A stretch of 64,000 nucleotides of DNA. Origin: Climacium dendroides. Taxonomy: Eukaryota; Streptophyta; Bryopsida; Hypnales; Climaciaceae. The number at the start of each line of letters is the position of its first letter. The stretch's first letter is position 1. A program made the translations under genes and the position numbers. The stretch is taken from the NCBI GenBank assembly GCA_950106755.1, contig OX467092.1, positions 7,564,001-7,628,000 of the forward strand. Reading direction: 5' to 3'. Positions 22,659 through 59,530 of the stretch are shown here, piece after piece. The notes beneath the pieces are model-generated. The model had not been told where the DNA came from and searched no databases. It saw only the letters and a program-made list of their open reading frames with translations.

Positions 22659-25600
22659 GTGCTATTCGGAGGCCTCCCCCACCCTAAAGAAGTGTCCAAT
22701 GCTGTCACAGATGAGAAGCGAAAGCAACTACGTGATGACAGACTTTGGGTGAGAGAATATCGCCGAGCTAGGTTTTTAAATTTGCATAGAATGAGTTGTC
22801 CTTGTTGTAAATGTCAAGGTCGCAGGAAGTGGATAGTTCCCACTATGAGGGAACATCTAATCCGAAATGGCAGAGATTCAAAATTTCGAGTGTGGCGAGG
22901 ACCTGGGAGTCCGGAGACATCAGATGAAGAATGGGAGGCTGGTTTCTGGAGTTCAACAGAAGGTTAAGCAATGCAAGTCAATAATGAAGTGGACACTAGG
23001 AATATGCTGGACAATTTGCTTCAAGACGTTGAAAACTCAGAGCCCATGGAAGAACGGCTCCAGTACCATAGAGGCCATGGAAGAACACTTGCATGACACA
23101 GTAGTGGAAGCCTTTACAGTAGCAGACAATGTAACCAACGCATGCAACTCTAGACCAACTGTAGGTGATGACTTGGAGGTCGAAAATGCATTGCTACAGG
23201 AAGAACCGGTAGGTGATACAGATGAGCAACCAGAAGTTCAAGGTCAAAACAATTTTGACACCGACATTTTGGAAGCTTTGCATGAATTATATGAAGGTGC
23301 TCAATGTACCAAGTTGGCAGCCACCATCCTTATCATGAATGTGTGCACAGTCCATGGGGTGAGTAACAATTTTGCTGATGAATTATTCACTCTTCTCCAA
23401 GGACACATTTTGCCACAGAATAATACGTTGCCTAGGAATTTTTATGCAGCTCAAAGACTAACAGGAAAATTAGGATTGGCTTACAATAGCATCCATGTAT
23501 GCAAAAAAGGATGTGTACTGTTTAGAGGAGAACTTGAAGGTGCTATAAGTTGTCCAAAGTGCAATCATCCAAGGTATAGGGATCAGATTAGAAAGAAGTT
23601 TCCGGTGAAAGTTTTGAGGCATTTTCCTATCATTCCAAGATTGCAACGCATGTTTCGTAGCCCAGCACTCTCAAAATTGTTGCTATGGCATTTGGAGAAT
23701 GGAAGCAATCGTCCAGGAGGAGACAATCTAGTGCGTCACCCATGCGATTCAAAAGCGTGGCGCCACTTCCATGAAAATGTGGATCCAACCTTCGGTGAAG
23801 ACTCGAGAAATGTCCATTTTGCTCTTGCTGCAGATGGAGTAAATCCTTTCAAGCAGACTTGTTCGAGTTGGTCTACTTGGCCAGTGACCTTGCTAAATTA
23901 TAATTTGCCGCCTTGGTTGTGCACCAAATTTTTTTTTATGATGTTAGCTTTGTTGATTCCTGGAAAGCAATCTGTAACTGCAGAAGTATTTGATGTGTAT
24001 CTGGAACCCTTGGTGGATGAATTGTTGGAATTGTGGAAAGGAGTGCCAGCATATGATGTTGTACAAGAAGTTGGTGCCCGCTCTTTCAACCTCAGAGCAG
24101 TTCTTATGTGGACAATTCATGACTATCCAGGATATGGCATGGTAGGAGGATTTGCGCACCAAGGCTATGCAAGGTGTCCATGGTGCGGTTCTCATTTAGG
24201 AGCAGAGCATTCAATGGAGCTATGTAAGGAAATTTATCAAGGGACTCACAAATGGGTGCCTACTAATCATCCTTACCGCTCGGAGGGTATGAAGGATCAC
24301 TTTGATGGAAAAGTGGAAGTACGAGGAAGACCCAAAATTGTATCTATAGAAGAACAGTTGGAATATGCAAAGTAGTATAAGACTTGGAAAGTAGCAGGAA
24401 ATAGAGACGGAGCTCTAGGGAATCCGTCCAAATTGCATGGAGTGAAGCGGTCTAGCATTCTTTTCAGGTTGCCTTACTGGAAGGTGAGTTGCTGTAGTCT
24501 TTCAAGTCGAACGACTAAGTAGAAAATTAGTAGTATCATTAAAGTGTCAAGAAGAATGACAATGGATTACTTGCATTTCAGTTGTATTATAGTCGCTTAT
24601 CAGTCGTATCTTAGTTGCACGTCAGTTGTATTGTAGTCGCATATCAGTTGTGTTTTAGTCGCATATTAGTTGTGATTTAGTTGCATACCAGTTGTATTTT
24701 AGTCGCAAACCAGATGTATTTTAGTCGCATGTCAATTGTGTCATATTCGTTTTGAGATGCTTATAAAGAGCGTTTGCAGTGAACACTAAAGTGCCTACAT
24801 TGTGTTAGAGTCTTGTAGCATGCTTTTTGAGAGAGATGAAGTGATAATAAAAGCATTTGGTAGGGAGATGTACAAGTAAATGTGTCTTTCCATGTTCGTT
24901 GTCAATCCCATACTAACTACTCAAAGGCTATTCATGTGACCAGAGGCTTCTCATCCGCTATACACTAGATGTCATGCACTACGAGATGAATCTTGCCAAG
25001 AATTTCTTAAAAACAATAAGTGGAAAAAAAGATACGGTGAAGGTGTGACGAGATCTTCAAAGGAGAGGTATACGAAAACATTTGTGGTTGATACCAAATC
25101 CTCGTAGAGTTGGTAAAATGTTGAAACCTGTTGCTGGATATGTGCTCTTTGAGAAAGAATACGAGCAATTTGCAAACATTATTGCCTCTGTGAAGCTTCC
25201 TTCAGGATACTCCTCATCATTTGGGAAGTATATAAAGGCTAAAAAATTTGGAAGCCTCAAATCGCATGATTATCATGTGTTAATGCAGTAATTGATGCCA
25301 TTGGCATTGAGGGGTCTATTGAAACCCGGACCGCATATGGCCGTCATGCGGATTTGTAAAGTATTCAGGAGAATATGTACGAAGGTTTATAACCCAGCAG
25401 ACTTTGAGTCTCTTCAATTGGATGTGGCTGAAAGTATGGCACTACTAGAGATGGAGTTCCCACCGTCATTTTTTGACATTATGATACACCTTCCATATCA
25501 CCTAGTCCAAGAATTAGACTTGTGTGGGCCTGTTGGCACAAGGTGGATGTATCCAGTTGAAAGGTATATGAAAACATTGAAGAATTATGTTCGGAGTATG

Positions 25601-28295: not shown

Positions 28296-31200
28296 ATGGT
28301 GACTACTCGATCAAAGTCACATAGCCGCCAATCCTCCACTAGTGGAGAAGGAAGAACTAGTAGAGGTAGAGGGAGACCACCGACACCACCACCAATTGTA
28401 GAACCTCAACCGGTAGAGGAAGAACTTAGAATAGAAGAACCACCGATAGTTGAAGAACCACAAGTAGTAGTAGGAGTTGGAGACAACAACTTCACCCTTG
28501 AAGTGCAAATAGAAGACGGTTTTGATAGGATAGAGGAGGTGGAGCCACCTACCCCCATGGCTGATTTAGATCCGGCAGATGCCATGATGGCACCTCGGGG
28601 ACTACCAATAGTTATGCCCCCTAGCATGGCACCTTGAGCTATGCCTACACATCTCCCGAAATTTTCGGTATTGGCCCACGAAGATCCCTCGGAACACATT
28701 GAGCGGTACATTGAAATACTTGTAACCAATGTGATCCCCAAGGAGACCTATAGATTGGTGTGGTTTTCAACCACGATTGAGGAGCAAGCATATGAGTGGT
28801 ATCGATCACATGCCCCCAACACTTTTGCTACATGGCCGGCATTACAAACGGCCTTTTTACGACAATTTCGGCCCGAAACCGAGTAACAAAGTGCCTTGGT
28901 AGCCCTCACAGGAATGCGCCAAGGTCCCACCGAGGAAATCTCGGAGTACATTCGCCATTTTAACACGGTAATCACCCGGTTTGTAGGAAACCACCTCACC
29001 GATGAAACCATTAGGTTTTACTTCATCCAAGGATTCAACCAACAAACCATAATGCGGGAGATCTTGAACACAAGTCCTTGAACGCTAGATGAGGCCCAAG
29101 TAGCGGCCCGGCACGTGGAGCAGATCGAGAAAGAAAACGCTAGGATGTGGAACCGGACCGTAGCACCGGTGCTGGCGTTTATCCCCGCCCATTATGTGCC
29201 ATCCACATCAGTGGCACCTTCTCATGGACATCCATACCCTCTCATTCCAAGTCATCCGGCACCCTTAGATTCTAGGCCATCGGCTCCTCCACTTCCATGG
29301 CAATTGCAATCGGAAACATCCCAGTTAGCGGAATTAGAGGCCAAATTTCAAAAGGCCAATGATGATCTCAAAGGAGACGTCATGAGGTCAATCAAAGGCC
29401 TTGAAGATCAAATTGCCATGGCCATTGGTGCAAAATCAGCCCATGCGCCACCCCCTCTAAATGAGACCGGGAACTTCCCCACCAACATTTGATGTCGAAA
29501 TTGCAATCAATATGGTCATAGTGACCAATTTTGCCCCCTTCTAAGGAACCATGGGCCATACATACCTCCCCAACCTCGTCCACATCCACCTATCCAACCG
29601 GGAGGTGGTCAATCCCAACCAAAAGGCATCCCATGCCCTACTTGTGGCCGGGTGCATCCTCTCGATCCCGGAATTTGTTGGGTAGAGACCGGCGTAGTTT
29701 GTGGGGAATGCGGACGCAACCACCCCACCGAAAAGTGTAGGAGGCCTAAAAAAGGGTTTGGAATGGATGCAAGTACTACCAAACAACCCCCCTTGAACTT
29801 GTTTTACAATGGAGCACCTTAAGGAGCTCAAGGATACTACATGAGTCCACAACCCGGGCAATGGTATCCTCAGTATGGGGTACCACCAATTGCATCACAA
29901 CCGGTAACACAACCCCCATATCTCCCACCGGTACAACCGGTGGCACCACCACTACATCCATTGCAACCGGTTTATACATCTCCATCTCCAATACCACGAC
30001 CTCCTATTTATCCTCCTCCGGGAATTTCGCAAGATGCTCGAAATGAGGAAGTAGTTTATCCCGAAGGTGTCCCACTACCGGGTCATACACCTTCTTCTAA
30101 CTCGAGTGCTACCACAACCCAAACTACCCATCTCATTATTCATGAGGATGAGGATCACACCAAGGCATCCACTAGCCAAAGGGCTATGGAACATAGGGTG
30201 GCGGTTATGACACGCCAACAACATCGAGATAATCCTCTTATAGGGCCAATCCCCAAGGAGGGTAGTAGTTCGGATGAGGAACCTGATATCCAAGCCACAA
30301 GGGAGTTTTTGAAAAATCATACTCATAAGAACCTTGGTGAGCCCCCATTGAATGATCCAACCATAGAGGATGTGCCTCTCGATGAACATTTGAGTGATGA
30401 AGAAGAAAACCTCAACCGGTTTGTAGAGAATATGGACATTGACAACCAACATGATGTGGTGTCAAAAGACCCTTCTTCCCGAGTTTTCAACATGGCGGAG
30501 AAATATGACTTATGGACCGACCTAAACAACCTCCGTGCTAATATTTCTATAGCCCAACTTATCCAAGTGGCTCCTTCTTTGAGAAAGGAGTTCAAAGAGG
30601 GAGCTACAATACCTCACAAGTCTCGAAAGATTATGGTGACCACTAGGATATATTCTAGTACCTTGATGGATGATGGGGCATTAGAAATTGATGTGTCTAT
30701 CTTAGACAAGGTCATCCCAAGAACCTTGATAGATGGAGGAAGTGACATCAACATCATGCCACTTTCAACCATGGAAGCCTTAGGATTAAAGGTCACCGGT
30801 CCATCACCTTATGTGGTGAATGTGGCCGATCAATGCCCCGTCACCCCTCTTGGTCAAATTGTGAATTGTCAAGTAGAGGCCGGGGGTGAGATTTATACTT
30901 TGACATTTCATGTGTTGAAGTTGATGACAAACAAGACCGCCTACCCTCTTCTTTTAGGCCGTGATTGGTTGAGGAGGGCAAATGCTTCCGAACAATGGTC
31001 CATTGGCAAATCCACCCTAGCATTTGGTCCAATGGATAATCGGACCGAGATCACCATTGGATCCCACAATACCCCTATAAATTCACCGGATAGGACAAAA
31101 CGTAAAGTTGCAGTAGACCCTTGCGTTGAGAATGTAGGAGTCTTGCACCCTACATTGATTCTAGTGAAGGATCCCATCGATTTAGGGCCGATAAAAAATT

Positions 31201-31811
31201 TAGACCCTGGCCTTTATGATTGGGAGGATGATGGAGAATTCACCGCATGGCTTCGGGAACATCCCGAGGATCTTGAGACCCCAAGGACCCAAATGGTCAA
31301 TTGTACTACTACCACAAGTGTGGTGGATGAGCCACCGGATCCCTATCCTAGTTTCGAGACATTCTTAGATACCATGGAATATGAGGTTATGTATAACCTT
31401 GAGCTAGATGGTATACAACCCCACGGTTTGGAGGGACTATTGGATGAAGACAATATTCTCCCACCACCCCTTCATATCCAGAAAGCCTCCATAAATTTAG
31501 AGGAGGGGAATGACCTTCTCCATTATTCCATGGTACCTTGTAATTGGTCTCATGGAACCAAAAGACCGGCCATAACCCTAGATAATGAGCACCATTATTG
31601 AGATGTGGTCGTAGATGGCAAAGAGTGTCAACCTATTAGGATGGACACTAAATTAACACCGGTAGAGGTAGCTAGCATGAGAATAGCTCAAAAATCTCAA
31701 GATGCTTTTGCATGGTCCTACAAGCACAACAAAGGCATCTCACCCAACGTAGTCCAACCACCTATACCATGTTATAAGATTATGGATGATTATCCAAATG
31801 ATCCATTCTAA
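28296..31811 (+). pseudogene. Gag-protease of the LTR retrotransposon
   Basis: One frame from ATG 28296 with six internal stops: TGA 28635, TAA 28884, TGA 29079, TGA 29490, TAA 29820 and TGA 31599. Gag shows the Retrotrans_gag-like region (WFSTTIEEQAYEWYRS to 28886, then GFNQQTIMREIL). A CCHC zinc knuckle at 29493-29534 (CRNCNQYGHSDQFC) is followed by a second Cys-rich stretch. The retropepsin region has LIDGGSDINIMP (30726) and PLLLGRDWL (30945); its active site reads DGGS rather than DTGS or DSG. The frame ends after DAFAWSYKHNKGI, the linker that normally leads into reverse transcriptase. Every internal stop is one C-to-T step from CGA or CAA. Gag would form the particle and protease would cleave it; neither can be made intact from this copy. 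Confidence 0.9.
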
Positions 31812-38789: not shown

Positions 38790-40497
38790 AGTCGGTGTTA
38801 TGGTTTTCTCTCTGGGTGGTATGTTTTGCTTCTTGTGTAGGTTTTAAGGAACAAGGGTGGCGGCTTTGTGCTTGTGCGGCTTTCGGAATAGTAGCAGAGA
38901 AGGTGCTGTTGGAGTTTGATGTGGCAGTAGAGATTTCAGCTTATTGTGGCGCTTGATAGGTGACACTTTGGTAAGTGTACAGTTCTTTCTAATTTCAGCA
39001 TCTGCAGCTTCATGATTCTACAACATTTTCCCAATTTTAGATCGGATTTGGAACTAATTTTGTTTGTGGTTTTCATGCATTGGTGATATAGGTACAAAGC
39101 CATCTCCATTCTCCAATATTATTTTCGGCAGCTTTTAGTTTATAGGGGTAGGGATTAGAGTGGACGGATCCTATAGTGTTTTTTGAACACTAGAACATGT
39201 TGCCATACCAGGCAATTGTACCCCATTTTTTTCATATATATGTACATGAAGCTGAGGCTTCTATTGATTTTGAGATTTTATTATTCTTGTACTACAAATG
39301 GTTGTTTGGCTAAATTTGATTTCTATGCGTACCACATGGTTCTCTGCTTGTTTGATCATGGCTGTATATCCTTCATGCATACTAGAAAGTCTATGCGCTG
39401 CCTTGTTAATTATGTGATTTGGAACAGCTGGCATATATTCTCATTGTAATGGCTCTTCCATTAAAGTTGGCATTTGCTGTCACTGTGTTGTCTCGGAGAG
39501 GCTTAAGCTCTATGAACTGTCACTATAATGGTCCGATATTGTATACTAGCTTGGAGAGGCTTAAGCTCCATGAGCTGTCATTGTAATGTCTTGATACTGT
39601 ATACAAGGGCTTCAGAGTTGTAATGGCTTGTACTGTAATACGAAGGCATCTAGAACCCACTGTAAATGTCCTGCTGTATAATGCAATGGTGAACTTTAAA
39701 TAAATAAGGAATTCTGGCAAGATAGTATCTTGGAGTTTGCAAGATTGCTTGTTAGCTACAATTACTAAATACTTGCCCTCTCAACATATATATTTTGATG
39801 GGAATGTTCAAAATAAAATGTTACTCATCTTCTCACACAAGTAGTAGTTAAATTAGTGGAATTAATACCATTCACAACATTTTGACAATCCAACATAATA
39901 TTTTGCATTGTATTTAGAAAACTACCTAGGGCTATATAACTTTTTATATTAGTTGTGACGCTTGACTAAAGGTTTTTGGGGGCCCCCTATTTTTTAGTGC
40001 AATGATGTTGGTGCGAGGAATTTTGAATCAATATCATATAAAATTTTCTAAGATTTTGGAAAAATACAAAATCTTGTTTAATTGTCAGTATATCAATATG
40101 GTTTAGGACTCAAGTTACATGTATAAGAATTGTAGCTAAAGACCATCCCTCACTTGATAGTTGGAGGATGCAATAAAGTACATCATGCACTATTACAACC
40201 ATTAGGAAAAATTTGAATCCTAGGAGGGTTGTTTTAAGCTTTCATTTTTGGGCACCTTATAGTACAAGTATAGCAAAAAAAAAATTTTAAAAACACCTAA
40301 ACTTGACTTGTTATTGATGTAGCACCAACAATACCATATTGTAAGATAATTTAAAAAATAATAAGGACTAAAATTTTAAATAATGTAAACTTCATAATGG
40401 CTAAAAAATTTTGTAATGTATATTCCACTATTTTTTAGTGTTTTTTTTATGAAACATAGTCAAAGAACCACGTGGGGTTAGCATAACTATTAGACAA
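38790..40497. other. Non-coding flank between two elements
   Basis: AT-rich. A roughly 55-base direct duplication around GAGAGGCTTAAGCTC occurs at 39496-39540 and 39551-39600. May include the 3' end of the old transposase-like element, whose terminus I could not locate. No gene seen. Confidence 0.5.
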
Positions 40498-40506
40498 CAT
40501 ATAGTG

Positions 40507-40675
40507 CAACGATGCTAGTAGGCGAGCTTGGAGCGGGGAGCTTGCGAGCCACGAGCGTGAAGTTTGTGAGCGGTGAGCACCAAAAGTATATTTTTGGAAA
40601 TTTTTTTCATCCAATTTTTTTTCATCCAAAAACTTACTATTTATAGTAAATTTTGTGACCTATGACCGTGGCTCC
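40507..40675 (+). repeat. Left terminal inverted repeat of the MULE
   Basis: Begins CAACGATGCTAGTAGGCGAG, followed by GAGCTTGCGAGC-like units and, near 40656-40672, TGACCTATGACCGTGG. Pairs imperfectly with the reverse complement of 55399-55514. Confidence 0.72.
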
Positions 40676-41354
40676 TATTACCGTGGTCTACATTGAATTT
40701 ATAATTTCAAGCTTGGGTTTCTCATTTGCTGACTTCTCGGACTTGTAAAATTATGTATATATTTGAAACTCTTATTCATCCTACTACACAAAAGTAGGGG
40801 TATAACACTTTTTATAAAATAGACCATCATGAGTTTCGGAGAACACTACAGTGTTTGAAGGGGATAAATTGAGCACGGAGAACTAGGGCTTCTAACTATC
40901 CCATAATGATTGCTATTTCTAACAAGTGCTAGTATAAGAGGAATGGTATAGAAGAGTTAGCCAAGCTAAAGGTCAAGGTTTGTTGACTACTACAAACAAA
41001 TGTGGTAGATTTCTAATTTTGACCGTAAAGTGATTTACTTCATGTATTTTAAATTTCTAATTTTTTGCCTTCCAACCTGACAAGAACTAAGATTGTAGGG
41101 AAGAGGTGGAAAAGCAAAAAATCTATATGAGTTTAGTCTTCGTATGTGTAGGGTAGCACGAGAGTATAGGATTAGGGTTCTAGCCATGCATTGGTATTTC
41201 ATTTCACACAATTTAGTAATGACACTTCTGAAACATACTCCCACACTTTGCAAATGAAGGAACATTTTGATTGGTACATGCTTGAAATCATTTCTATTGC
41301 CAGATACACTAACGAATACAATATGCATGAATTTATCAAAAATTGCAATTGTGC
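40676..41354. other. Subterminal non-coding DNA of the MULE
   Basis: No gene recognised. Lies between the left terminus and the 3' end of the transposase gene. Confidence 0.5.
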
Positions 41355-44300
41355 CTACTCAAGGATAGTGATGAGTCCCGCTCGAAGTAGAAGTAGCTTC
41401 AACTCATTGAAGCTATAACTAGGTGCATGAATGAACTTGTCATCATGGATATCCATCTTGCAAAAATACCTATACAAATAATATAGATGTTTACAATTCA
41501 CATACTGCTGCCTTCCTCCAATTGCCGAGACGGCCATATTCACAAAATCCGGGCAAGTGCACGAGGGGAACATACCCACCGTAATTCGATATACGTTTTT
41601 GGTAGGGTTAGATCCCGTCTCCAATTCCACTATTGCGCCAAGGCCTGGAAAAGGGAGTAGGGTCACTCCTAGAATTTGTCCTTTAATGTTCCCAGCACTC
41701 TCCTACTTGTTCCGTTGTTCCGTACTTGGAGCATTTGCAATTCTTCTGATGGTTCGGTTGTTCCTGATTGTTGGATAAGCATCCGGATTCTTGGGTGATG
41801 GTTGGTTATACAAAACACTTTCAAAAATCTTGGACATGGTGAACAATCAACGAGGCGACAGGGTGGGTCGTTCTTGGAGGTGGAAGCCCGCATGTTGTAG
41901 CAATAAAGTTTCGTCTCGATTGAGATTTGTCCCAATCAATACGGGCCAAACCTCCGGCACCTCCGGCCAATCAATGACCCATTTCCGCTCTAAGCCTTTC
42001 ACGCACCTTTCAATGTCGTCCCAACAGAACCAGAAGTCTGAGACCACCTCGCGCCTACTCCCATATTCTTCTTTCCTCCCGCGATAAGTGGGAGCTGGGG
42101 TTCCCTTCCTCCCCTTCGCAATTTTTGTGTTACACTTGATGTTTGACGTCCGTTGTTGAGCTTGACATCTGGCATTTGACTTGTGGCTAATCCTTGCAAT
42201 GTACCACTTCGATGTGTCACAGTCACTTTCAAATGCAACGGTCACATACTGCAAGGGGCGACCCTCAATTGTATTGCCCTTGCCATCCATCAATTCTTCT
42301 GAAGCCTTCGTTGACCTAGTCCGGACACGTGGTTGAGAGAAATTGATCTTATCTGGTCTATGGGAGTCTCCAACATCACCAATAGGTACGTCCAACTTCC
42401 TCTTTGTGCTTCCAAATACTTCCTCTCCTTCCAAATGTGGTACACGACTTCCCACACCATGTGCTTCAGGTAATGTGTTCAAGGCCTCGGCAATTTTCTT
42501 TGGGCAACCACTACGTCTTGCAGCTCTCAGCTTTAGTTCCCCCTTAGATGGGCCGGACCCACTTGCATGACCTCTGAGGTAGGCGCGATACTTTGTCATT
42601 TGCATCCAAGCACGAATACTGTCATCACAAGTGGCGTCAAATAAATTGTTCCCTCTATTTCTGGACATTTGAAGCCACTTATTGTGCATTGTTTCAGACA
42701 AGTTACACGAAGGCAAGTCTGCCATCTCCTCCAAACTCAAGCCCTGCAAATGCACCCATTACAATACTTCAGTCTCCAATTATGGATTTGTACCTTTGAC
42801 TAAAATTTACATATTCTCATGCAAGGTATCCAAAATAGTAGCATTTGAAGTGAGCACTCCAACTTCCGTCGGATCCGACGGATGTCCAAATGTTCTCTAT
42901 TGGTACTCCCTTTTGTAGTCCCTGAACGTCACAGGGAAAAAAATGGAAGGACTACCTTCCACTAGTTCCAATGAATTTTGGAAATTGGAAATGAAAGATA
43001 CATTCTGTGAGGTCAGTAGAGAGTTTCCTTCGAAGATAGCACTTATATGAGAAGGGTAAAGAAATCGACTTCCAACAAAATATTAAATGGATTAAAAAAA
43101 TGGAGTGTTTAGAAGACCAGTAAACTACCCAAGAAATACTTTGCTGAAAAAAGCTCTATATTCAAAAGAATATTACATTGACAAAAAATTAGGAGTGAAC
43201 AAATGACTAGCACACTACCAAAAAATACTAGGCTAAGAACATTCGTCCAAAACAAAAAAAGTAGACTACCAATAAAAGGAATAAAGGAAATCAAGCCAAA
43301 AAAAAACACTATCCTAAAAAGAAGTCTAGACTAACAAAATACTATTCAAATAAGAGAAAAAATAAAAAAAATCTAGGCTGCAACCAATAATTCATTACAA
43401 AAACAGTAGTGCACTAGAACAGAATTGTGCCCTAAGAATACGTGGATTTCAAAAAACTACTTGAATAAAAAAAATTCTACACTACCAAAAACACCCATAT
43501 ACACGTATGTTCATATACATGTAAACGTTTAGGTGTTTGCATATGTGTATGTCATGAAGCCTCCCCATGCATATAGATAGAGGGATGACACGGTCACTTA
43601 CCATTGTCATGAAGCCTCCCCACTGCAGGTATCGAAAGTGCCAGAATGCAAGCCAATGATCTAAATGATGAAGTGCTTCTTCATTCGCGACTCCAGATGA
43701 CAACCACCATGACCGGATTGCCAAGTATCGAAGCTCAGCTTCATCTATGGTCTTCGATTCCTTGTATTGCTTGCATAGCGTAAGATGTTGGTGCTGAAAG
43801 TTCTGTTTGATGTGTTTCTGTGTGTGCTTATGAAGGGAAGTGCTCCAATGTAGCAAACATGTTCTCTCCCGGTTCTCCATGACCTCGTTCGCAGAACCAC
43901 TCCCATATACTATACGGACCGCATTCCAATTAGCCATCGCACTATCTACCATGAATCCTTTGAAGTTCGGGTCAGGCACGCCATGTCGTGCCATAACAGC
44001 ATTCAAACTCCTCCAAAATTGTACTTGGACCTGGGTATCTTCAGACTGCATATCGCATACTGCGATGGTCATCACCTTCTTGTACTGAGAGTCGTACACG
44101 TGGCAGGCCATGGTGGTCCACTCTTTCACGCGCTTCACGTGGTCGAACATCATCCACGCGTTTTCAAGGTCCTTTCCTGGTTGCATACGCTTCACCATAT
44201 CCACTCCACTTCCTGGTCCTTCAGTTAGCATTTTAAAAACGTATACTTTTTCTTTGCCCTGTCCTGGAAAGACGCTATCGTGTATGAATTCGAACTTCGA

Positions 44301-45834
44301 CTCTCTCTTCATAGTCATAATGTTGTCAATAACCCCTCCTCGGTTATTTGAGCGGAAGGAGGAAATTACGTTGCGTATACTAGGGCTACTTAGATATTGG
44401 AATCGATCCATCACCTCATCCACTTCTTCTCCCTTCAACATTCTCTTCTCTCCCTCTCCATGGTGAAATAAGTAGTTCGACAGGAAATCTTTGCTAACGG
44501 ACAATGCTATAGCAGAGTTAGTGGCTGTCGGTGTTTTCGCAACCTGCTCCGCTAGGAGTTCGCTAATTTCTTTTTTAGAATCTCTATACATGCCCTTTCC
44601 TACTGGATGAGTATGGGCTCCAAAGTGAATAGATGCCCTTGTCATATTTGGATTGTCGCTATAACAATAGTAGATCCTAGCATCGCATGTGTGAAGGCAA
44701 GTGGGTGTCACTTTGCAGACTTTACACACTAGGGTACAGTCTTTGGGTGGACCATCCCCTACTGCAAACGGGAAGACTGTGGATCCATTCCACTCTGTCT
44801 CATTCCTTTTTCCAGCCCTCTTCAAGTACTCGCACTCATGGTTCTTACAAGCAAGGTGACCAGCACAGAAAGACTTACGGAACTTTAGGTTGTCGACGTT
44901 GTGGATGTTTGTAGTCACGAGTTTGCACCATGTATGTCCATCATAGCGCTTGTCCATTCCCTCCAAATTCTTCGCTGCGGATGATGAAGAGGACGAGCGA
45001 CACGAGGTAACTCAAATAACACATCTCCATTGTAGGAAGGGGGAAGGTACTGCACCCGATGGTGCTTTATAACATCAAAGTTTGTTGTGGACAATTCACT
45101 TCTAGAGCGACGAATACTGGACAATCTCTTCAAGCAATCTATAATACTCACTTGGGTACCAAGATTTGCTGTCAGTGGAGGGCATGGAAACACAGGAGAC
45201 TGTAAAATATTGGATGGGGTGGTTGATGTGACTTTTGTATCTGACATACTGTGGACCGCAAACGTGGCGTTTTGAAGTGCAACTTGCGGGGACTCTCCCT
45301 CAGATTCACTAGACAACTCTACAATGGTATCCATTTTCTCCCTCTTCACCTTCGTAAGAATCGTATTGTTCGGGAGTATAGGAAAGCAGTCACTTGGTAG
45401 ACTAGTTGGAAGTCTTGGAGACATGTAAGGCATGTCCACTGTAGAATTGTCTGATTGCCGACTACCTAGCTCAGTGGCTGCCCCAAGAAGACTAAGAGGA
45501 AGCCCAAAAGCTCTATAGTTTCCTGCCCGCAAATACCAACAGTGGCCTTCTTCTTCTGGAATGGAATGGAATGCTCTAATTCCCCTGATTCCGACTTTCT
45601 CTCTTCTTCGACATAGATTGAAGACTCTAGGAACTTGAATCTGACATGCAAAAGGTGATTGAGTACTCTAGCATGTCCTTCGTGATTCACTGGAAACACC
45701 AAAGGTATTTCATGACCGTCTACTCTAATACAAGCCATAGTGTAAGTAGGATGACTGCAGGAATTTGAAATGAGAGAACTGGCTTTTAAAAAGGGTGTTG
45801 AGGATTTTATACTTTGTTGAGGAGTTCCTTGCAA
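41355..45834 (-). pseudogene. Mutator-like transposase with SWIM zinc finger
   Basis: Reads leftward. The N-terminal region (from 45834, or more likely the Met at 45738) is MACIRVDGHEIPLVFPVNHE. A frameshift lies near 45530, then YLPPSYNGDVLFELP and another shift near 44990. Next comes a zinc-binding GCM/WRKY-like block (CKVCKVTPTCLHTCDARIYY, FGAHTHPVGKG, 44740-44600). The catalytic region follows: VCDMQSEDTQVQVQFW, FKGFMVDSAMANWNAVRIVY and CLLHWSTSLHKH, with Asp residues placed as in MULE DDE cores. A GT donor ends this exon at 43602. The next exon starts at 42743 in matching phase (GLSLEEMADLP) and runs to 41847. The C-terminal SWIM finger CTCPDF...VNCKHLYYLY lies at 41570-41470; the last stop is at 41355. 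Stops near 41847 and 41706 plus the frameshifts show decay. It would cut and insert this element. Confidence 0.82.
42865..42882. repeat. 18-bp palindrome with GTCGGATCCGAC core in transposase intron
   Basis: A perfect dyad around CGTCGGATCCGACG in the only clear intron of the transposase gene. The same core forms the centre of the three long palindromes in the first intron of the methyltransferase gene. Here the arms do not extend. Confidence 0.75.
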
Positions 45835-48143
45835 TCATTGTGATCATCACTTTTCACAGAGACAGCGAGGTCCAGGTTAGTACAAATTTCTATTGCCACT
45901 CAATTAAGTTACTTTCCGTATTGCCGCCAGTAAAAGTTAGAATTTTGAAATTAAGAGTAGTTTAATAACCTTAGCCGTCAAGCAATGATACCGAATTTTT
46001 GCAATGATGTATTAGGTATCCAAACTCATTGCCAATACATGTACGCCTTGCAGGAGCTCTGTCATTGTTAGGAGTGCCCAACTCCGCCGTCATTTTCAAA
46101 AATAAATTGCTGGAGGCGGAGGAAATATTGTGCCGACATTGGAGGATTTGGAGCGTGGCAAACTCAACTGACAGCATGACAGTTTTGTCAAAACGAGACG
46201 GACTTCAAAGTCATTAGGGCTGCCAGTACTTCAAGAGCATAGTATGCCGATTTCAAAGCAAACTAAATGCATGGCGCTTTCATGGAGCCGCCAATACTCA
46301 CGTGTCAGTTGATCTTAGGAGATTAATTACATCTTGGCCAGTTAGGAGAATGCAGTAATTTCGAGCATGCGAACCTCGTTCAAGAGCAACTATAAACTGT
46401 ACCTTGGACCTGCTCAAAGCCTTTTCATTTTGCAACTCCAATTGTGGTAGTAGCGTTGCATCTTAGTAATCACGTAGTTTTTGTTGTCTCATGCTTGTAG
46501 GCAATCCAAACTCGGCCATCTTAGCTCCGTCACATCGTACAAAAAGGAAGAGACGTAGAACTTTCTTCTTTTCCACAGCAAAGGCTTTGAGGGTATCCAG
46601 GATGACGAGAGCGAAGAAAACAGTTTCAAGGACGAGGCAGGGTGTAGAGAGAGAGGTACCAAGAGACATCCAGTTCCAAGAGGGTGATGCACCTCCAGTA
46701 GATGAAGTGGGTCTCCCATTGCACACTGTGCATGACGGGATCAGAGAGAGTGCAGGACTTAGCAAATTTGGAGGAGACGACACGGTGAATGTAAGTTTCG
46801 ATTTGAACTCCTCTCATATATTGCAGTCATGGCGTCAACCTAGATTATAGTGACAGAGGACCTTAGCTTGGTTATGATACCTAATTGTAGTGGATTGTGC
46901 ACTACATTGCTTAGAGACTAACCATTATCATATCGAAGACTTACCCTGAATACACACCTCTGCATGGCACAGACGTGCTTTCAGTAGGCCATTTTAAGAC
47001 TATGTCAAAGTAGAGTTGTACACTTTGAGTTCCAGACATTGAGTTGTAGACCTTCAGTTTTAGACTTTTAGTGAGTCATGGACAAGCATTGAGAGAACTT
47101 GCGTTTAGTTGCATTTCTGGACACGCAAAGTTTGCATTCCTGTTGTTGTTGTACAATTTTTAGTACTGACAAATAAGATCATATGAAAGTGATAAGTACT
47201 CTCATTTGGAGTGAAGGCCTTGAAGGCTCTGGTGTTGCTCTAAAAAGACAAGTAGAACATCCCTTATTTTAGAAGTACTTTTCTGTAATTTGGAAAGGGT
47301 GTTTAAGGTCAAGGCCAGACATTTGTATGAACAAGAACAATTCGTCTGCGGTGTTCACATGAAGCTTGCAAACATTCATAGGCTTTGAAGGCTTGTAGAC
47401 ATTCTAATGTCACTAAGAAAGAAAATGTTTTTTTTTTAAAGTTCTATAATACCAAAGCTATTTAATCACCAGCAGGGGTGCTTTGGAGTTTTCAAAATGA
47501 ATGAGCGCTCAGAAGTTAGTCGTCCTTTGAACTAGCAATCCAGAAGCCAGTCGTGGGAGTCCTCAGTCTCCAACTGTGAGTCTAAAACTGGAAATCGGGG
47601 AAGATGAATAAGAGCTTCGAATCGGTCGAGCGCCCTGAGCCACAATTCGAAGTTGGAGCACCGCTTGCTCCAGGAAGTTGGTTCCTGATTTCCGAGCGTC
47701 CAAAATGCCTCCGAACAGGTACTTCTGTTCCAAGTTCACGGTGTTCACAGATCCGACGGTGTTCACGAATCCGACGGTGTTCACGGTGTTCACGGTGTTC
47801 CAAGTTCACTTTGTTCACGGTGTTCACGAATGCCGCCCAGGTGAGCCCTGGATGCCGCGAAAGTGAATCTATATCGAGATAGACTCGCGGATATCTCTCT
47901 ACGCCGTCCAACGATTAAGCTTCCAGGGATTCCTCCTGTGGACGTAGGCGGCAAACATTCAAACTCGCGCAACGCTCACGATACGCGCTGGACGATGGAG
48001 GACCTTGCATTGAGAAGCTGGTGCTTGACGATATCACATGCCACAAACGGCCGCGTGTGCTGGAATGAGAACTTGTGGGATTTTCATTTTGTGAATCGAT
48101 TATTAACAGCTTGGCACTCCTTGATCTACAAGACGAAGCTGCA
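45835..48143. other. Divergent intergenic region of the MULE
   Basis: Lies between the start of the transposase (minus) and of the methyltransferase gene (plus), so both promoters should be here. Short open frames (for example 46491-46850) show no recognisable domain. Contains the GGTGTTCACG repeat cluster at 47733-47830 and GC-rich DNA near 47900-48140. Confidence 0.5.
47733..47830. repeat. Cluster of TCCGACGGTGTTCACG half-cores
   Basis: GGTGTTCAC is repeated six times and ATCCGACGGTGTTCACG twice. These equal one half of the palindrome core found at 48583-49338, but no complete dyad is formed here. Confidence 0.75.
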
Positions 48144-48270
48144 ATGGCCCGCAGTACTCGTAGTCGTTCCAAGATGGCAGATGCCCAGCCGGACGACGCG
48201 CTTCAGGTCAGTCTCTAGTTTTTCGTCGATCGTGTGAGTCCAATGCGCCAGGAGTCCAATCTAGTACAGC

Positions 48271-48400
48271 GCCACTCGCGCAGTCCAAGCTTCAGCAGCG
48301 CCACTCGCGTAGTCCAAGCATCACCCGCGCCACTCGCGCAGTCCAAGCATCACCCGCGCCACTCGCGCAGTCCAAGCATCGTCCGCGCCACTCGCGCCAC
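48271..48400. repeat. 29-bp GC-rich minisatellite in intron 1
   Basis: GCCACTCGCG recurs at 48271, 48300, 48329, 48358 and 48387, with AGTCCAAGCATCACCCGC between copies. CpG-rich (CGCG in every unit), unlike the surrounding AT-rich DNA. Confidence 0.9.
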
Positions 48401-48582
48401 GCGCGGCGCACGACAGTCGCGTCAAGCGCGTTACGCGGGTGATGCTTGTTTTCATGAGTGCCCGATTCAGTTAGAATCTGTATTGCTCGATCGATTGCTC
48501 TGGCTTCCACTGCTGAGTTTCCAATCTGGGATTCAAGAAGGGGCGGCAACATCAGAAGAGTGAGAAGGGAGATGTCACGTCA

Positions 48583-48682
48583 GCCTCAAGAAAACATGAT
48601 CAGCCCGGGGGTGCTGCTTGAACACCGTCGGATCCGACGGTGTTCAAGCAGCACCCCCGGGCTGATCATGTTTTCTTGAGGC
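48583..48682. repeat. Perfect 100-bp palindrome P1
   Basis: Two 50-base arms are exact reverse complements with no spacer; the centre is GGATCC at 48630-48635 within CCGTCGGATCCGACGG. Arms start GCCTCAAGAAAACATGATCA. Lies in intron 1 of the methyltransferase gene. RNA from either strand would fold into one uninterrupted hairpin. Confidence 0.97.
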
Positions 48683-48995
48683 CGACGACTCCAGCGACCA
48701 CCCTGACCCGGTATTGAGCGGAAGTCTTATGGGGGAGATGCGATAATCCGAGATGAAGCTTATATTGAGAGCTAGTGGCTCGATTTAGCTTCCGAATTCT
48801 ATTTTGCTACTGAAATTTGTCACCGTAGCACGTAGTATCCTCAGTCCCAGTAAGGTGTTCTAGATTCAGTATAAACACAAGAATGAGAAATGTTGAATCT
48901 AGCTCGTGGACTTGCCTTGATCGAATAACCTTCAAATCTTCTGCGTGGACTGGCTTGGATTTCATTTTGAGAGAAATCTAATTTTGAGAGAGAAC

Positions 48996-49103
48996 TTGGG
49001 CACGTCAAAAATGCCATCAGGCTGGGGTGTCACCGTGAACACTGTCGGATCCGACGGTGTTCACGGTGACACCCCAGCCTGATGGCATTTTTTACGTGCC
49101 CAA
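48996..49103. repeat. 108-bp palindrome P2
   Basis: Arms of 54 bases begin TTGGGCACGTC and pair with two mismatches only (49043/49056 in the core, one in the arm near 49006). The centre CTGTCGGATCCGACGG is shared with P1 and P3. Same intron as P1. Confidence 0.97.
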
Positions 49104-49230
49104 ATCTCCCACGTGGACTGGCGTGGATCTAATTGGAATGTGGATGTGGGTTGGCCTTTATCTTGTATTAATTTAATGTCGCCTTGGACTGGTCATATCT
49201 CATTAGAATGAGGCTGCAAGAATTAGAGAT

Positions 49231-49338
49231 TTGGGCATGTGAATAATTCCATCAAGCTGGGATGTCACCGTGAACACTGTCGGATCCGATGGTGTTCACG
49301 GTGACACCCCAGCTTGATGGAATTATTCACATGCCCAA
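49231..49338. repeat. 108-bp palindrome P3
   Basis: Arms of 54 bases begin TTGGGCATGTG and pair with three mismatches. Same length and same outer TTGGG/CCCAA as P2, but several arm bases differ from P2 and most of those differences are matched on the opposite arm. Ends 80 bases before exon 2. Confidence 0.97.
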
Positions 49339-52300
49339 GTTGTTTTTACTCAATTTGTTCTCCAAAATTGCTGTATGGGTCCATCTTCAATTCTGACGTG
49401 TGCATTTGCTTTCTTCAGACATGTGATCGTCATGGGGAGTTGTTCGATGGCACACAATCAATCTCTGATGAGGTATTAGTATCTGCCTTTTTTTTGTTTA
49501 TATTTAAGTAATGAAATAGAGGGAATTCGGATTTGGGATTGAGGCTTACTGTTCTCAATGTCGTTAGGAACTCGTCCCCAAGCTCTGATTGTCTTAGGGA
49601 ACTCGTTCTCAAGTTCCCAATTTTTTTTGCTTACATTATTCGTTAGGACTCGTCCTTCAGTTCTCTATGTCTTTGGCTTTGGCTTGGATTTTGAATTGCT
49701 ATTGGACTGTGTTCTTTGCAAATGCATGTTTTGTTGTTCTAAAAGAGTTATAACATATTCTTAGAGAGAATTACCTTGCCAAGACATATGCGTCTTGATT
49801 TTACACTTCAATGTAGGTATAGAACTCATGTAGGGGAATGAATCCTACATGTACAGGAAGTTCGGTTACGGAGACCTTTGGTATTTATAGTACATGTTGA
49901 GATTTGTAAATTGAAGTTTCCTTGCTTACAGTTGCATTCAATGTCTCTTAGACCTTGTCTTCAATCTCAACTCTAATTTCATTGTATTCATTCCTCCAGG
50001 CTGGCCAACGCAAAGGCAAGCGCCCAAGGGTGACATCTAAAGAGAAGCAGGCCCCAATTGACCAGACTTTGACGTCGTTGCAGATAGGAGGGCCTTCTCA
50101 ACCACAGAAGGGGCCTCAAGCACGCCAAGTGCTTTCAAGTGACTCTAGTGATGATGAAGAGAACTTGGTGAGTTTTGCAGACATCATGGACGCTGCAGAG
50201 CGTGCTGTAAATGACTTCGAGGGAGATAGGCTTACTTGGAACCAAGGGCCTGGGCCATGGTTCTCCTCTGAGAGCTCGGAGACGGAGTATTCCTCCGCCA
50301 TTGAGCTCTCAAATGCTAGCTCTAGCCCCTCATTTGAGGAAGTGAGTGAGAGTATTGGGATTGGGAGAGTTTACACATATGAAGTCATCATCCTTAGCTC
50401 AGACTCAGATGAGGATGATGACGTGGACATCATCCAATAGGGTTTCATGACCCCAATTACATACCTTCTGCGGTTTTAGACATGCAAGCCATGTGCAGGC
50501 TGTTTTTCTTTCATATATTTACCACTCTTCCATTTTATAAGTGTAATTTTTTTTATTGAAGTAAAGAATTTTCAACTGCGTCTCAATATAAATTCTTCGC
50601 ACGGACTTGGCCTCTTTTTTAATTTGCGAGTGCAATCTTCTCTGACTGGAATTGTACATGCAGATGGATGTTTCACCCACTGGAGTAACTCAAGAAGAGA
50701 CCATCTTCGAGACTCCGGGAACAGATGAAACGACACAGCCGCATATTGGAGACGAAGAAGAAGAAGATGAAGAAGAGGATGAAGAAGGAGGAGGACAAGA
50801 TCCCATACAAATAGATGACCTAGAAGACAAAGATCAAGGACTCATGGAGGATGAATTGCGGCGCATACAAAAAGGCGACTCAGTAGATATCCTCTCCACT
50901 CTACGAATGAAGCCCGAAGAACTCTTCCGACTACACATCCCGCTTTGCAGACTTGTCGTTATGCCCATGGTGAGGCCCACACTCGCTTGTGACATTACGA
51001 AGTTGGAGCAAGAATTCGCAGGTGGATATTGTGATGGAGCGGTAGTGTTCTATGTCTCTACCACTAATGAGGAAGGAGAAAGCCAAGAGTTCGCAGAGGA
51101 CGAGATGAACAAGTGGGATCCAATCTGGAGAGAGAAAAATGAAGTGTTCACACGCTACCTCGACTCCAGACCTGAACTTCAGTTCCTCAAGAACTTGAAG
51201 TTCTTCATTTGCGACGGCAACCATCGCCGCATTGCATGGATGAACCTCATTGACAGGTACTACACATTGCTCCCAAAATGGCACTGTGTCGTAGACTGCA
51301 TTGTACTGGAAACCAAAGGGAAGACCGAGCTTGTCATGCAAGTGATGCATGACATCAACAAGTGAGTTCTTCCTTCTTGAGTTGCTTTTCTGGTCTTTGG
51401 TTTTTATGTGCTCTAGTTGTGAAATCATGGAGGCTTATTGGATTTCCTAAAATAGTCATCTACTTCCAAGTCAATGGAAGATTCACACGTGAAGACGAAC
51501 TTGGTACACACTCTGTACTAGGTGCAGAAGTATGGTCTTCTCCCAATCAACCGATTTGCTGATCTCCTCAAGCCTGGGGAGAAGAAAAGGTGTTTGCAAT
51601 TCAAGGTTTCAAGGAAATGGTATAGCATACCTGTGGAGGTCTTCACATCGTTCATTTTCAGGGTAAGACACTATGTGTTATACAAATTTGGAATCCTTCA
51701 GTTTGCTGCAGTCTGCTCCCAAAACTCTTTATATGCCTAACTTATAATTCAATGTTATCGTCTGAATGTGCAGCAAGAGATTTCCCAAGCTGCGGATGCT
51801 GCAGTGAGAAAGTATACCGATGCTACACCAGAAGAGGAGAGGACCCCTGAAGAAGTCGCTCTTGCCATGAAGGCGGGAGCAAAGGAGAAAACCAAAACTC
51901 TGATGGTGAAAATGGGGAAGTTGTTGGCAGTGGCTCAACCATCTAACGGGCCAGGCTTCTTACAAGAGGTCAGTCTAATTCGAAAAACTTACACAACTAC
52001 GAATTTACTTCTTCTGTTTTCAAACGCCAAGAGTTATTGAATGTGTTGCTGTCATAGGTGGAGAGGCACTGGAGCACTAATGAAGTGCCTGAAATGACAT
52101 TGGAGAAGTTGCAAATGGTGGCCACGTGCAACATGGCGCCTGCACACAAGATCAAGATCTTGAAGTGGTGGAACTCCTCCGCGCCATCTCGCGAAGCAAG
52201 GAAGTTCCCACCAAAGCCCATCTCCGAAAATCTCCTGCCCCATTTCCTTGCCAAATGCGTCTGGTATACTAGGGTAAGGGAATTGATTCCTATAGTCAAG

Positions 52301-55300
52301 TAACTATACCAAGCGATACTTGGTTTTCAAATTGTAACTCACAAGTTCAAAATGGGACCATGAACGTCTTCAATTGTACATTTTTAGCATGCATTGTACT
52401 CTGCAGATCGAAGATGCAGCAGTGGAGTACTTCGACTCGATGGTGAAGCAGGACAACATCACTATGAACTACAGCATTCCAACACAACCACAATACTTAG
52501 TAGAGTACATAGAAGGGTAGAGGCGCACAATTTGGGAGCACGGGTTTCAGACATATTTCAAAGGGCACAATTACTTCAAAAAGGGGGACTCGTTCATGGC
52601 TCACGAAGCGTCAGCCGCTGCTGTGCGTAGAGTTTTGTACCGGTGAGTTCCACTATCTCAATACTGGAATATGTCTACTAACTTGGTGGACAGCAAGTTA
52701 TTGTAAAAATCACTATACTATTTGGAGTCCATTATAATGAGGTTTCAAATGTTCACTTCAACTCTAACTCCTTATTTTAGAACCTTTCGGTATACAATTG
52801 TATGATAATTCTCTTCTGCAATGTCTCCATTAGGCCCTTATACTGGAAATGCATTCATTTTTCACAAGTTCGTTGGTCTTACCATCCGGAATTGCTCACA
52901 GATGTATGTTGTAGAGATTCCATGATCATCATTTACATTCTCCTGAATGCAAAATCATGCTTGTGCTGTAGATATTTCAAATTTGAGCTCAAAGGAAAAG
53001 GAGCCATCAATCGCTCAGACCTTCCCCCCTTCCTATCATCATATCTGGATCGCACATCCAATTCTTGTATGTTCACCGCACACCAGCTCCGCACCTACAC
53101 CACAGCTCATCTCAGCGGTGGAGGATGGTACCTGGATTGTCTCCTCGAGTTCACTCCTCCTTCCGAGGTTGAATTCAGGAGATCTTTGGACGGGAAAGGG
53201 GTCCTGGACTTAGAGATCAATGAGTTTACAGGCCTGGATGACAAAGCGAGAAAGAAGGCCATTGCAAGGAGGGATTTTCTGGACCGGAAGAAAGAGGCGC
53301 GGGTCCAAGTCCACCTTGAAGCGAAGGAGATGAAGGCATCCGAGCTTGTTGACAAAAAGGTGGCAAAAGAAAAGGAAGAGAAGGGGAAAGGCAAGGGAAA
53401 GGGAAAGAAGAAGGAGGAAGCGGGAGGCGAGGTGGTACCATCTTCCACCGCAAATGAAGATTCACAGGCGCAAAGTGCAGTACAGAAGAAGGCTACTCTC
53501 CTACAGCTCACCGAGGAAGTTATCACTTGTATGACACAAGCCATGGTCATTACAGAAGGTGATGTTTCTAAGACGGAGGATTTGATCCTCAACATCTCCA
53601 TCGAAGTCCTGGCAAAAGACATGGTCGAGGAGAAGCCCACGTGGTACAACGAGGTGCTGCATTTCTTGAAAAAGGTATGCATATGCATCTTTGTACTCAA
53701 AAGCGCATTTTTTACTTTCATATCTCATGAATGTTTTCTGTGCTTATTTTTAACTTCACCATGTTCTACATGTTTGCAGATGTCGGCCGGAAAGACTCGC
53801 ATGTTCGAGGGAGTGCCAAATGCTCAACCGGGGGTGGATGTCATATTCATTGACTGTCCGGAGAACTTACTCGTGCCTGGGCTCTCTACACCGCCCCATG
53901 AGGTGCCAATGTGAAATGCAGATGCTGATGATGAGGCTCTCCAGTTGGCATGTAGCTTCGCCGCAGAGCATCTACAAGATGATGGGTGCATCATTCTATT
54001 TCACTCCTACAGCATCAAATCCAAAGAAAACATTGCTGGGGTATGTGAGGCGTATGACTTGCTGATGAAGAAGGACTGGATGGGGATGAACCGCATGCAC
54101 ATCACCTCGGCTATAGACAACACAAAGACGGTAATTTTCATAGAATTTTGTTGAATATATTGAACAAGTTGCAATGCACTCCATTCAATGCATTCTTACG
54201 TACATTTGCTATGGACGTTGCAGACACAAAAGTTTGGAATCACCCTCCTCGTGAAGGACCTCGGCTCTAAAGGGAAATCCAAATTTTCCTTCAAAAAGAC
54301 TAACACCACAATGAAGGCTGGTGTGGACTTGGCTATCGATGACATGCTGATCAATTACACCCATGCAGATGACGTGGCTATGAATGGAAACAAACCTTGG
54401 CGAGGCGGACGCGAAAAAGATCCAAGGTTCTTCACTATCCTCTTGGAAGCAACAAGCGTTCCAAGAGACTTGATTCTGGATTGTACCGCATCTACAGGTA
54501 ATGATTCCATTCAGAAGTTTACTCCTCCAAATGTGTTCTTTCAATTCTTTCATGGAACTAAGTCATTTTGATTTCACTGCCTCCAGGTGCATGTATTACG
54601 GCTTGCCGTGGCACCGGCCACCACATTGTGGCTTTGGAAGGGAATAAAGACATTTATGATGCCATTCTGAAACCCATGAGGAAGTCACCAACACCCGTAG
54701 TGGTGACACCAACTGTGCCACCAATAGTTCACCTTTCACAAGATCCGGAGGATATGCCAGTGGTGCCTTGCAAATTCGTTCGCAAGGGAAAATCCAGTAA
54801 GTAAGTTGGCATTTTCTTTCATCTTTGCTTGGATGAAAACTTTCATGTTCTACAATATTGACAACATCTCTTTTTCTGTTGCAGAGATGGGAGATTGATG
54901 GCAAGGAATGACACCCTACCCCAACTAAGTCTTCTCATCAGTCCGGAGAAGTCTTTTGAGCTCCCAATCTATGCCGAGCAAATGGCGAGTGCCTTCGCGG
55001 AGTTTGGTTGCTCCAAACCCAAACGCCGTAAAGACACTTACGCTCTAAATGTCTTACAGTATATAGATGTTTCAGCATCCAAAGGTAGAGAGTCCTCGGA
55101 GTCATCTCCGAGTTCTGATTCTTTGAGAGAGTCCTAAACAACTTAGATTCATGAGATTGACAAATCTCTTTAATGGGTCAAACTATTATGTGTTGATTTT
55201 CATTGTAGATGGATTTGTGTGTTTATGGATACTTCTTCCATGTGTTCAATTTTCTTGCATGTTTTTTACTTGCTTCATTTTCTTCAATTGATAGTATTTT

Positions 55301-55398
55301 GTCTTTGCCTATAAGAAAGATTGAAAAATAATAACAGGACACTAAACCGACTTTCAAAAATAGATCTCACATTAACCACTCTGTACACGGCACAATAC

Positions 55399-55514
55399 CC
55401 ACGGTCATAGGTCAACTCTACAAGATTCTAAATTTTTTCAATTCATTTTTTTCATGCTTACAAGCTCGCAGGCTCATAGGCTCAGGCTCATAGGCTCGCC
55501 AAATAGCAACCCTG
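55399..55514 (-). repeat. Right terminal inverted repeat of the MULE
   Basis: Contains CCACGGTCATAGGTCA, then GCTCGCAGGCTCATAGGCTC-type repeats, and ends GCCAAATAGCAACCCTG just before the CATATAGTG duplication. Confidence 0.72.
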
Positions 55515-55523
55515 CATATAGTG

Positions 55524-58297: not shown

Positions 58298-59530
58298 AAT
58301 TCCAACCACTCTAAAATTGTTGAGATGTATATAGAAAATTTTTAATGAAAATGACAACATTTCAAATCAAAAAGTATTTTCAACAAAAGGATTCCTAGGG
58401 GCCAATCTTTAGTTTAATTCAACCATGAGTTTTAGCTCCTGTTACATCCATTGACCCCAGGCACGTTAAACCATCACGAACTATGTCCTCATATAGTGGT
58501 CTAGGGTGACTAATGAAAACTTTATGGGATAATGAATTGGAGTAGGCAAAGCAAAGCACACAAGGACTCCAGAGTTGACTAACCATGTAATTTTTACCAT
58601 TCTATCATGTCATTTGAAGCACTATTTTTTTTTGGCATTTGGCACTATTTGAGTATGTACAACAAAGATAAAATGTCATGATGTTTTTAATTAGCCATAG
58701 TGACTTGGCTTTTTGTATTTAATTAATTTACTTTATTTGGGAGGTCAACGGTCATGCCAGAGCATGTGAATGGTTGCCATGGGGGTAATATTTTGTTTCT
58801 TAGATGTACTCCAACCTAAAATTGGCCTTTACTAATTGTCAATTTTTGTCAAATTCTTCTAGATACTCCCTTTCAAAGATTTTTAAATTTGTAGACTAGT
58901 ATGGTCTACAAATAAACTAGTTCATGGACACAATGAATAAATAGTAGGAGGTAGGCAAAGCAAAGCATTAAAAAAAAGCTCAAATTTGTAAATCATCTCA
59001 TATGAGACTAAAGGATCCTAGCTACCATTACATGTGTTTGAGGTTGTTTAGTGGTTCAATGATTTTTTATTATCATCTCTAATGTACCTCTAATTTAAAT
59101 TTAGAGAAATGAAGTCAAAAATCACCCATTTTATATTATCATCTCTAATGTACCTCTAATTTAAACATAGAAAATGAAGCCAAAAATCACCCACCCAAAT
59201 GGAAATCACCATTATTACAATGAATTGCGATAATCCCATTACCACAAGGCTGGGTGCTTGTTAACTAAATACAACACCTTCCTCTTATAGGAGAACATTA
59301 ACCATATACCAATCCTTACAGGATTGAGGGGCAGTTTTATTGTGTTTCTGTAATGTTTGTGACTAGAATTTGTAAGTCATAACCACTAAACATGTTATGC
59401 AATATGTACACTCTCAATGGCTCTAAATATGTAATTCCATTCAACAAACACATTTCTGTAAAGCCTAGATAGTATTCTAGTAAATAATGAGAACCAACAA
59501 CACAATGAATACTCTGAATATCAACAAGAG
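58298..59530. other. AT-rich intergenic DNA
   Basis: No gene. A direct duplication of about 50 bases (ATTATCATCTCTAATGTACC) occurs at 59078-59130 and 59138-59190. Confidence 0.55.

Follow-up and report, generated by a model that had tools for sequence, protein, structure and literature searches.

A gene for an accessory protein with ParB and methyltransferase domains is described, in the available text of the source, for Sola1-1_Ec32, a Sola transposon of Ectocarpus, and like proteins of green and red algal transposons are cited there to Iyer et al. (2011) and Petroll et al. (2025) (PMC12477816). The VANDAL21 (Hiun) element of Arabidopsis, a Mutator-like element (MULE), has an extra gene for VANC, whose targets are, in the available parts of the reports, tandem repeats that lie in introns or upstream and change rapidly from one related copy to the next (PMC5735166, PMC10398659). 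MuDR of maize is a MULE with two genes, mudrA and mudrB, and the second protein is apparently needed for integration, as stated in the accessible part of a further source (PMC6446971). Here we analyze 64,000 nucleotides of Climacium dendroides DNA (contig OX467092.1, positions 7,564,001 to 7,628,000; hereafter the window), in which positions 40507-55514 hold a decayed member of a multicopy Mutator-like transposon family that was likely once self-mobile. The proposal of an initial annotation that this element is Mutator-like and carries, besides a transposase gene, a dedicated second gene (hereafter the cargo gene) with ParB-like and beta-order amino-methyltransferase-like domains is supported by our results.

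The locus resembles each of these systems in part. Like Sola1-1_Ec32, insofar as the available text describes it, the element is a large DNA transposon with a single large ParB-like and amino-methyltransferase-like protein, the gene for which runs in the opposite direction to the transposase gene. By contrast, the transposase is of the Sola type there and Mutator-like here, where the genome shows CG and CHG decay and the cargo lacks the DPPY motif (a comparison made by description and not by sequence). With VANDAL21, as presented in the accessible text, the element shares the status of a MULE with an extra gene and noncoding tandem repeats, intronic and upstream, that vary strongly between copies; this likeness is confined to repeat layout and divergence. 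Moreover, VANC function was measured, whereas that of the cargo is predicted, and the arrays lie upstream of or within several genes in VANDAL21 but in one mid-element island here. MuDR is likewise a two-gene MULE, although MURB has, to our knowledge, neither a ParB nor a methyltransferase domain.

The element belongs to a multicopy family that makes 10-bp duplications

The ends of the window copy and its target-site duplications are as follows.

40497-40506, no strand: left target-site duplication, ACATATAGTG, 9 of 10 bases of which are repeated on the right side
40507-40720, plus strand: left terminal inverted repeat and subterminal region, used in the end comparison and the genome search
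55301-55514, minus strand: right terminal inverted repeat and subterminal region, used in the end comparison and for copy flanks
55515-55523, no strand: right target-site duplication, CATATAGTG

The left end begins with CAACGATGCTAG and the right end, reversed, with CAGGGTTGCTAT, and these inverted ends are imperfect. When the two 250-bp ends were aligned locally, the top score was 60, compared to at most 51 in 200 shuffles. Because 2 of 500 pairs of stretches drawn at random from the window also scored at least 60, the end alignment alone is modest evidence. CATATAGTG occurs at 40498-40506 and 55515-55523, immediately flanking the element ends at 40507 and 55514; a further occurrence at 58490 is unrelated to the element.

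The inverted ends and the duplication are settled by other copies in the window's own assembly (412.6 Mb, 123 contigs). At least 40 places, window included and scored out of 272 candidates, matched the left-end 214 bp with 93-100% identity over 213-214 bp. We examined the ten best matches to the left end as ten further copies of 20 kb each. Nine were full length with the whole interior (14.7-16.5 kb, both genes, and both ends), and for copy c07 the sequence examined contained no more than the left 5.8 kb. All nine full-length copies showed the same end motifs and a perfect 10-bp duplication that differed in sequence from copy to copy, which implies that the family inserts with 10-bp duplications. 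These duplications were scored by eye on the flanks; the automated comparison used 9-mers in another register. Thus, the perfect 9-bp CATATAGTG pair first noted beside the ends is real, but the family duplication is 10 bp, of which the window copy retains 9. Both genes are held by 10 of the 11 copies examined (window included) and by a divergent relative described below, contrary to the chance nesting that copies lacking the methyltransferase-like gene would have indicated.

In a separate observation, copy c04 (C34:34699128-34719127) apparently lies inside the transposase intron of an approximately 80% identical family member, and seems to be a nested insertion of one relative into another.

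MULE target-site duplications are 8-11 bp long, and MULE transposases have a SWIM finger and a distant link to IS256, according to the accessible part of the source (PMC6446971). Both the window family and the divergent element agree with this class in duplication size and in having terminal inverted repeats. A WRKY-GCM-type zinc finger and a D..D..CxxH core are hallmarks of MULE transposases. The transposase gene consists of two minus-strand exons, read from 45738 to 43602 and then from 42743 to 41355.

43602-45738, minus strand: transposase exon 1, in which weak structural matching points to a WRKY/GCM-like region and a catalytic core; its frame changes twice in the window copy
41355-42743, minus strand: transposase exon 2, in which CTC..CKH can be read as a SWIM-type zinc finger; broken by stops in the window copy

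The Pfam MULE transposase model had no match at E ≤1 in 15 relatives or in the window's pieces, a result that does not exclude MULE membership.

The cargo gene evolved under purifying selection while the family spread

The 13-exon structure proposed for the cargo gene was confirmed, with exon 5 starting at 51470. Its exons, all on the plus strand, are listed below.

48144-48206, plus strand: exon 1
49419-49472, plus strand: exon 2
50000-50167, plus strand: exon 3
50664-51361, plus strand: exon 4, with an acidic stretch and a ParB/sulfiredoxin-like domain (CDGNHRRIA)
51470-51662, plus strand: exon 5, acceptor altered in the window copy
51774-51968, plus strand: exon 6
52058-52273, plus strand: exon 7
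52407-52642, plus strand: exon 8
52972-53674, plus strand: exon 9
53780-54130, 54224-54497, and 54587-54800, plus strand: exons 10-12, with a beta-order amino-methyltransferase-like domain
54885-55137, plus strand: exon 13 with the stop codon

The borders of the 12 introns are largely conserved. As the initial annotation had it, the element encloses two large genes, and 9 of the 10 other copies do so too, but both genes are decayed in the window copy. The transposase gene has two frame changes in exon 1 and stops in exon 2, and the cargo gene is interrupted by three stops within its coding sequence, with one of its splice acceptors altered as well.

Selection was tested by comparing variants present in at least two copies with singletons, in frame and off frame. 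Among shared variants of the cargo gene (eight copies), 41 were silent and 34 replacement, and the replacement-to-silent ratio (pN/pS) was 0.24 in frame compared to 0.59 and 1.37 off frame. This ratio was lower in the ParB part (0.08; 7 silent, 2 replacement) and the methyltransferase part (0.14; 17 silent, 8 replacement). Corresponding in-frame values for the transposase were 0.16 in exon 1 (22 silent, 12 replacement; seven copies; off frame 0.81 and 2.17) and 0.08 in exon 2 (19 silent, 5 replacement; ten copies; off frame 0.93 and 2.87). Singletons gave pN/pS values of 0.45, 0.49, and 0.57 in frame compared to 0.42-0.69 off frame. The in-frame deficit of shared replacement variants, together with singleton ratios that resemble the off-frame values, implies that the cargo was constrained during spread and that copies decay after insertion. 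Pairwise comparison of all eight cargo copies gave an NG86 omega of 0.33 overall, with 0.25 in the ParB part, 0.23 in the methyltransferase part, 0.34 in the middle, 0.44 in the C-terminus, and 0.86 in the N-terminus. We conclude that the cargo gene was under purifying selection, comparable to that on the transposase gene, while the family spread.

The decay itself is strongly biased, with C>T and G>A changes making up 749 of the 900 singletons. C-to-T rates were 0.20 at CG (201/986), 0.24 at CHG (243/1016), and 0.065 at CHH sites (305/4673). The CG and CHG decay points to plant-type CG and CHG methylation of silenced copies, which would be expected to leave such a footprint.

A deeply diverged relative carries the same gene pair

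A divergent element of 11,134 bp (C34:4367088-4378221) lies 2.6 kb past copy c09. Its limits were set by searching for 10-mers that recur beside inverted ends of 20 bp, a search in which its end pair agreed at 14 of 20 positions and the next-best pair at 12 of 20. A stronger argument for these boundaries than the 14/20 score is that the ends, CAACGGTGCTAG and CAGGGTTGCTAT, are like the end motifs of the window family. The element is flanked by a perfect 10-bp duplication, ACTTAGGGTA. Compared piece by piece, its minus-strand transposase is 59-73% identical and its plus-strand cargo 36-58% identical to those of the window family, and transposase exon 1 is stop-free across 717 residues (in the stretch C34:4369227-4386226). 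The same genes, arrangement, ends, and 10-bp duplication in this relative imply that the gene pair is old and not the result of chance nesting. Thus, transposase and cargo were co-inherited in two deeply diverged subfamilies. In addition, seven contigs, compared by eye and with identity assumed from equal size, are apparently common to the lists of the 120 best homologs of the transposase and of the cargo; one of these is 15,646 bp long, approximately the size of one element.

The cargo protein combines a ParB-like domain with an altered methyltransferase-like domain

The cargo is predicted to have a ParB/sulfiredoxin-like fold. In a structural search with the ParB exon (VIA-align), all 15 entries listed were Noc, PadC, sulfiredoxin, SbnI, or Atu1540, the last two of which we take to be members of the ParB/sulfiredoxin superfamily. 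The ParB box is of the GxxRxxA type. A ParB-type box is present in the cargo, where CDGNHR is unchanged across 30 aligned rows (29 chosen from the best 120 relatives, plus the window); the divergent element has CDSNHRLLAW, without the G.

Motifs IV and I of amino-methyltransferases are the catalytic (D/N/S)PP(Y/F/W) and DPFxGSG, respectively. DpnA, with DPPY and DPFMGSG in the alignment, aligned weakly to the cargo, first at motif IV and further along at motif I (3.1 and 7.3 bits), which is the beta order. Five PHROG methyltransferase models matched at E 0.01-0.22, and the methyltransferase models that matched the cargo at E 0.01-0.25 did so mostly over the motif I end. Both predicted domains lie in one protein encoded beside a transposase gene, as expected of a transposon ParB-methyltransferase accessory protein.

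A DPPY-type catalytic motif was found in none of the nine copies read, nor in the divergent element. Motif IV is DCPEN in four copies, DIPEN in three, DCLEN in one, and DCPKN in one, and DMPEG in the divergent element, so that DPPY retains neither its second proline nor its aromatic residue. Motif I is DCTASTG in eight of the nine copies, DCTTSTG in one, and DCTAATG in the divergent element. Because none of these copies has DPPY, catalytic DNA methylation by the cargo appears doubtful, and the suggestion in the initial annotation of an active DNA methyltransferase is not upheld. Bacterial-type amino-methyltransferase domains also occur in other eukaryotic mobile elements and genomes, namely in DIRS-type retrotransposons and as rotifer N4CMT. 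These belong to a different element class or to none and are not known to have a ParB domain, and N4CMT keeps the catalytic motif.

The fastest-evolving part of the element is a repeat island at the cargo gene start

The region around the start of the cargo gene contains the following repeats.

47734-47828, plus strand: tandem array of 9-bp period, GTTCACGGT, upstream of the cargo gene
48269-48397, plus strand: tandem array of 29-bp period, cargo intron 1
48574-48691, no strand: near-perfect loopless palindrome with 59-bp arms and centre GTCGGATCCGAC, cargo intron 1
48990-49109, no strand: near-perfect loopless palindrome with 60-bp arms, cargo intron 1
49231-49338, no strand: third, less perfect palindrome, cargo intron 1, missed by the palindrome scan in the window copy

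We compared two groups of copies (c01, c02, c04, and c08 against c00, c05, c06, c09, and c10; c03 excluded) in windows of 500 bp. Between-group divergence was 1.4-5.2% in 25 of 30 windows, introns and ends included, compared to 6-15%, with gaps up to 47%, in five windows from 47007. The stretch directly past the 9-bp array (47831-48143) was 10% diverged and gap-free. Thus, the fastest-evolving part of the element is a noncoding island around the cargo gene start (about 47000-49500). Copy c10 shares the 9-bp and 29-bp arrays with the window copy, and c01 has an array of 22-bp period. All ten aligned copies, that of the window included, have two to three loopless palindromes in the island, with arms of 53-63 bp except for two of 25 bp; those of the window have the centre GTCGGATCCGAC or one base off. 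The palindrome scan detected none elsewhere in the window, nor between the transposase and the ParB exon of the divergent element. These palindromes may be nested elements resembling miniature inverted-repeat transposable elements, extruding hairpins, or binding sites.

Outside the element, the window contains an open frame at 22861-24375 (plus strand) that matches Pfam Transposase_21 (tnp2, E 7.6e-64) and presumably marks a CACTA/En-Spm-type element. A 592-aa open frame at 29823-31601 (plus strand), with weak aspartyl-protease matches (E 0.0025), is possibly part of a long terminal repeat retrotransposon.

Proposed function of the cargo protein

In the reading that we favor, at a probability of about 0.5, the cargo protein is predicted to recognise its own element's island and, in a VANC-like manner, likely acts against silencing by the host or licenses transposition. 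The ParB-type domain would bind DNA, and its predicted target is the hypervariable tandem-repeat and palindrome island at about 47000-49500. The altered methyltransferase domain would serve as a non-catalytic module, for example in S-adenosylmethionine binding or as a structural part. As a result, silencing would be countered or transposition licensed, much as by VANC for VANDAL elements. Mechanical causes may also make repeats diverge fast. A bolder proposal, which we advance tentatively as rather improbable, is that a transposon-borne fusion of a ParB clamp and a conserved pseudo-methyltransferase loads on the palindromes and tandem repeats of its own element, spreads along the copies, and shields them from host CG and CHG methylation, with targets and protein co-evolving as in VANDAL elements. 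Such a fusion would be a self-recognising, self-targeted anti-silencing machine made of bacterial chromosome-segregation and DNA-modification parts.

Among other explanations, the one that fares best, although we consider it somewhat unlikely, is that the cargo is a MURB-like transposition co-factor with no epigenetic role, which bridges or pairs the ends or assists integration. It accords with the comparable selection on cargo and transposase and with the existence of two-gene MULEs, in which mudrB is apparently needed for integration (available text of PMC6446971). That the mid-element island, and not the ends, diverges most argues against it, but this point is merely suggestive. Slightly less favored, and in our view unlikely, is an active N6-adenine or N4-cytosine methyltransferase that the ParB domain aims at its own ends or island, where the mark protects or licenses. 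The beta-order motifs and the purifying selection on that domain would fit such an enzyme, an activity that the authors suggested for related proteins of the Ectocarpus Sola element, as far as the accessible text goes (PMC12477816). By contrast, motif IV without the second proline and aromatic residue, in nine copies and the divergent element, and a motif I that departs from DPFxGSG in each of its three forms argue against catalysis.

It is very improbable that the cargo derives from a large DNA virus or a bacterium and is merely passing through the element. Prokaryotes and viruses typically have domains of both types, but the gene has 12 introns with largely conserved borders, and a pattern-filtered scan, which distant relatives may escape, confirmed no relative of the ParB exon among 10 pattern matches in IMG/VR and 17 in GTDB genomes. 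An ancient viral or bacterial origin is possible and is uninformative on present function. Finally, MULEs often carry host sequence (accessible part of PMC6446971), but chance host-gene capture of the Pack-MULE kind, or chance nesting of unrelated features, is largely refuted by the finding that 10 of 11 copies have both genes, as does a subfamily whose transposase is 59-73% identical, by the contigs apparently shared between homolog lists, and by the conserved exon structure and selection, and is hardly credible.

Significance of the cargo gene

The initial annotation regarded this type of cargo as undescribed. ParB-methyltransferase accessory genes have already been reported for algal transposons, in the available text of PMC12477816, so the cargo is not wholly new in kind. 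Among the matches listed, judged from titles and abstract starts of mostly non-subscription literature, we recognised no other report of such a gene in a MULE. New here are the element class, the plant-like host, the evidence of selection, the altered catalytic motif, and the candidate target. The occurrence of ParB-methyltransferase genes in unrelated classes, Sola by report and Mutator-like here, suggests that transposons have repeatedly used them as an accessory. That the canonical catalytic motif is lost here is a warning against assuming that such proteins write N6-methyladenine or N4-methylcytosine. Together, the selection on the cargo, the C-to-T scar across multiple copies, and a mapped, fast-changing candidate target make the effect of the cargo on its own element directly testable.
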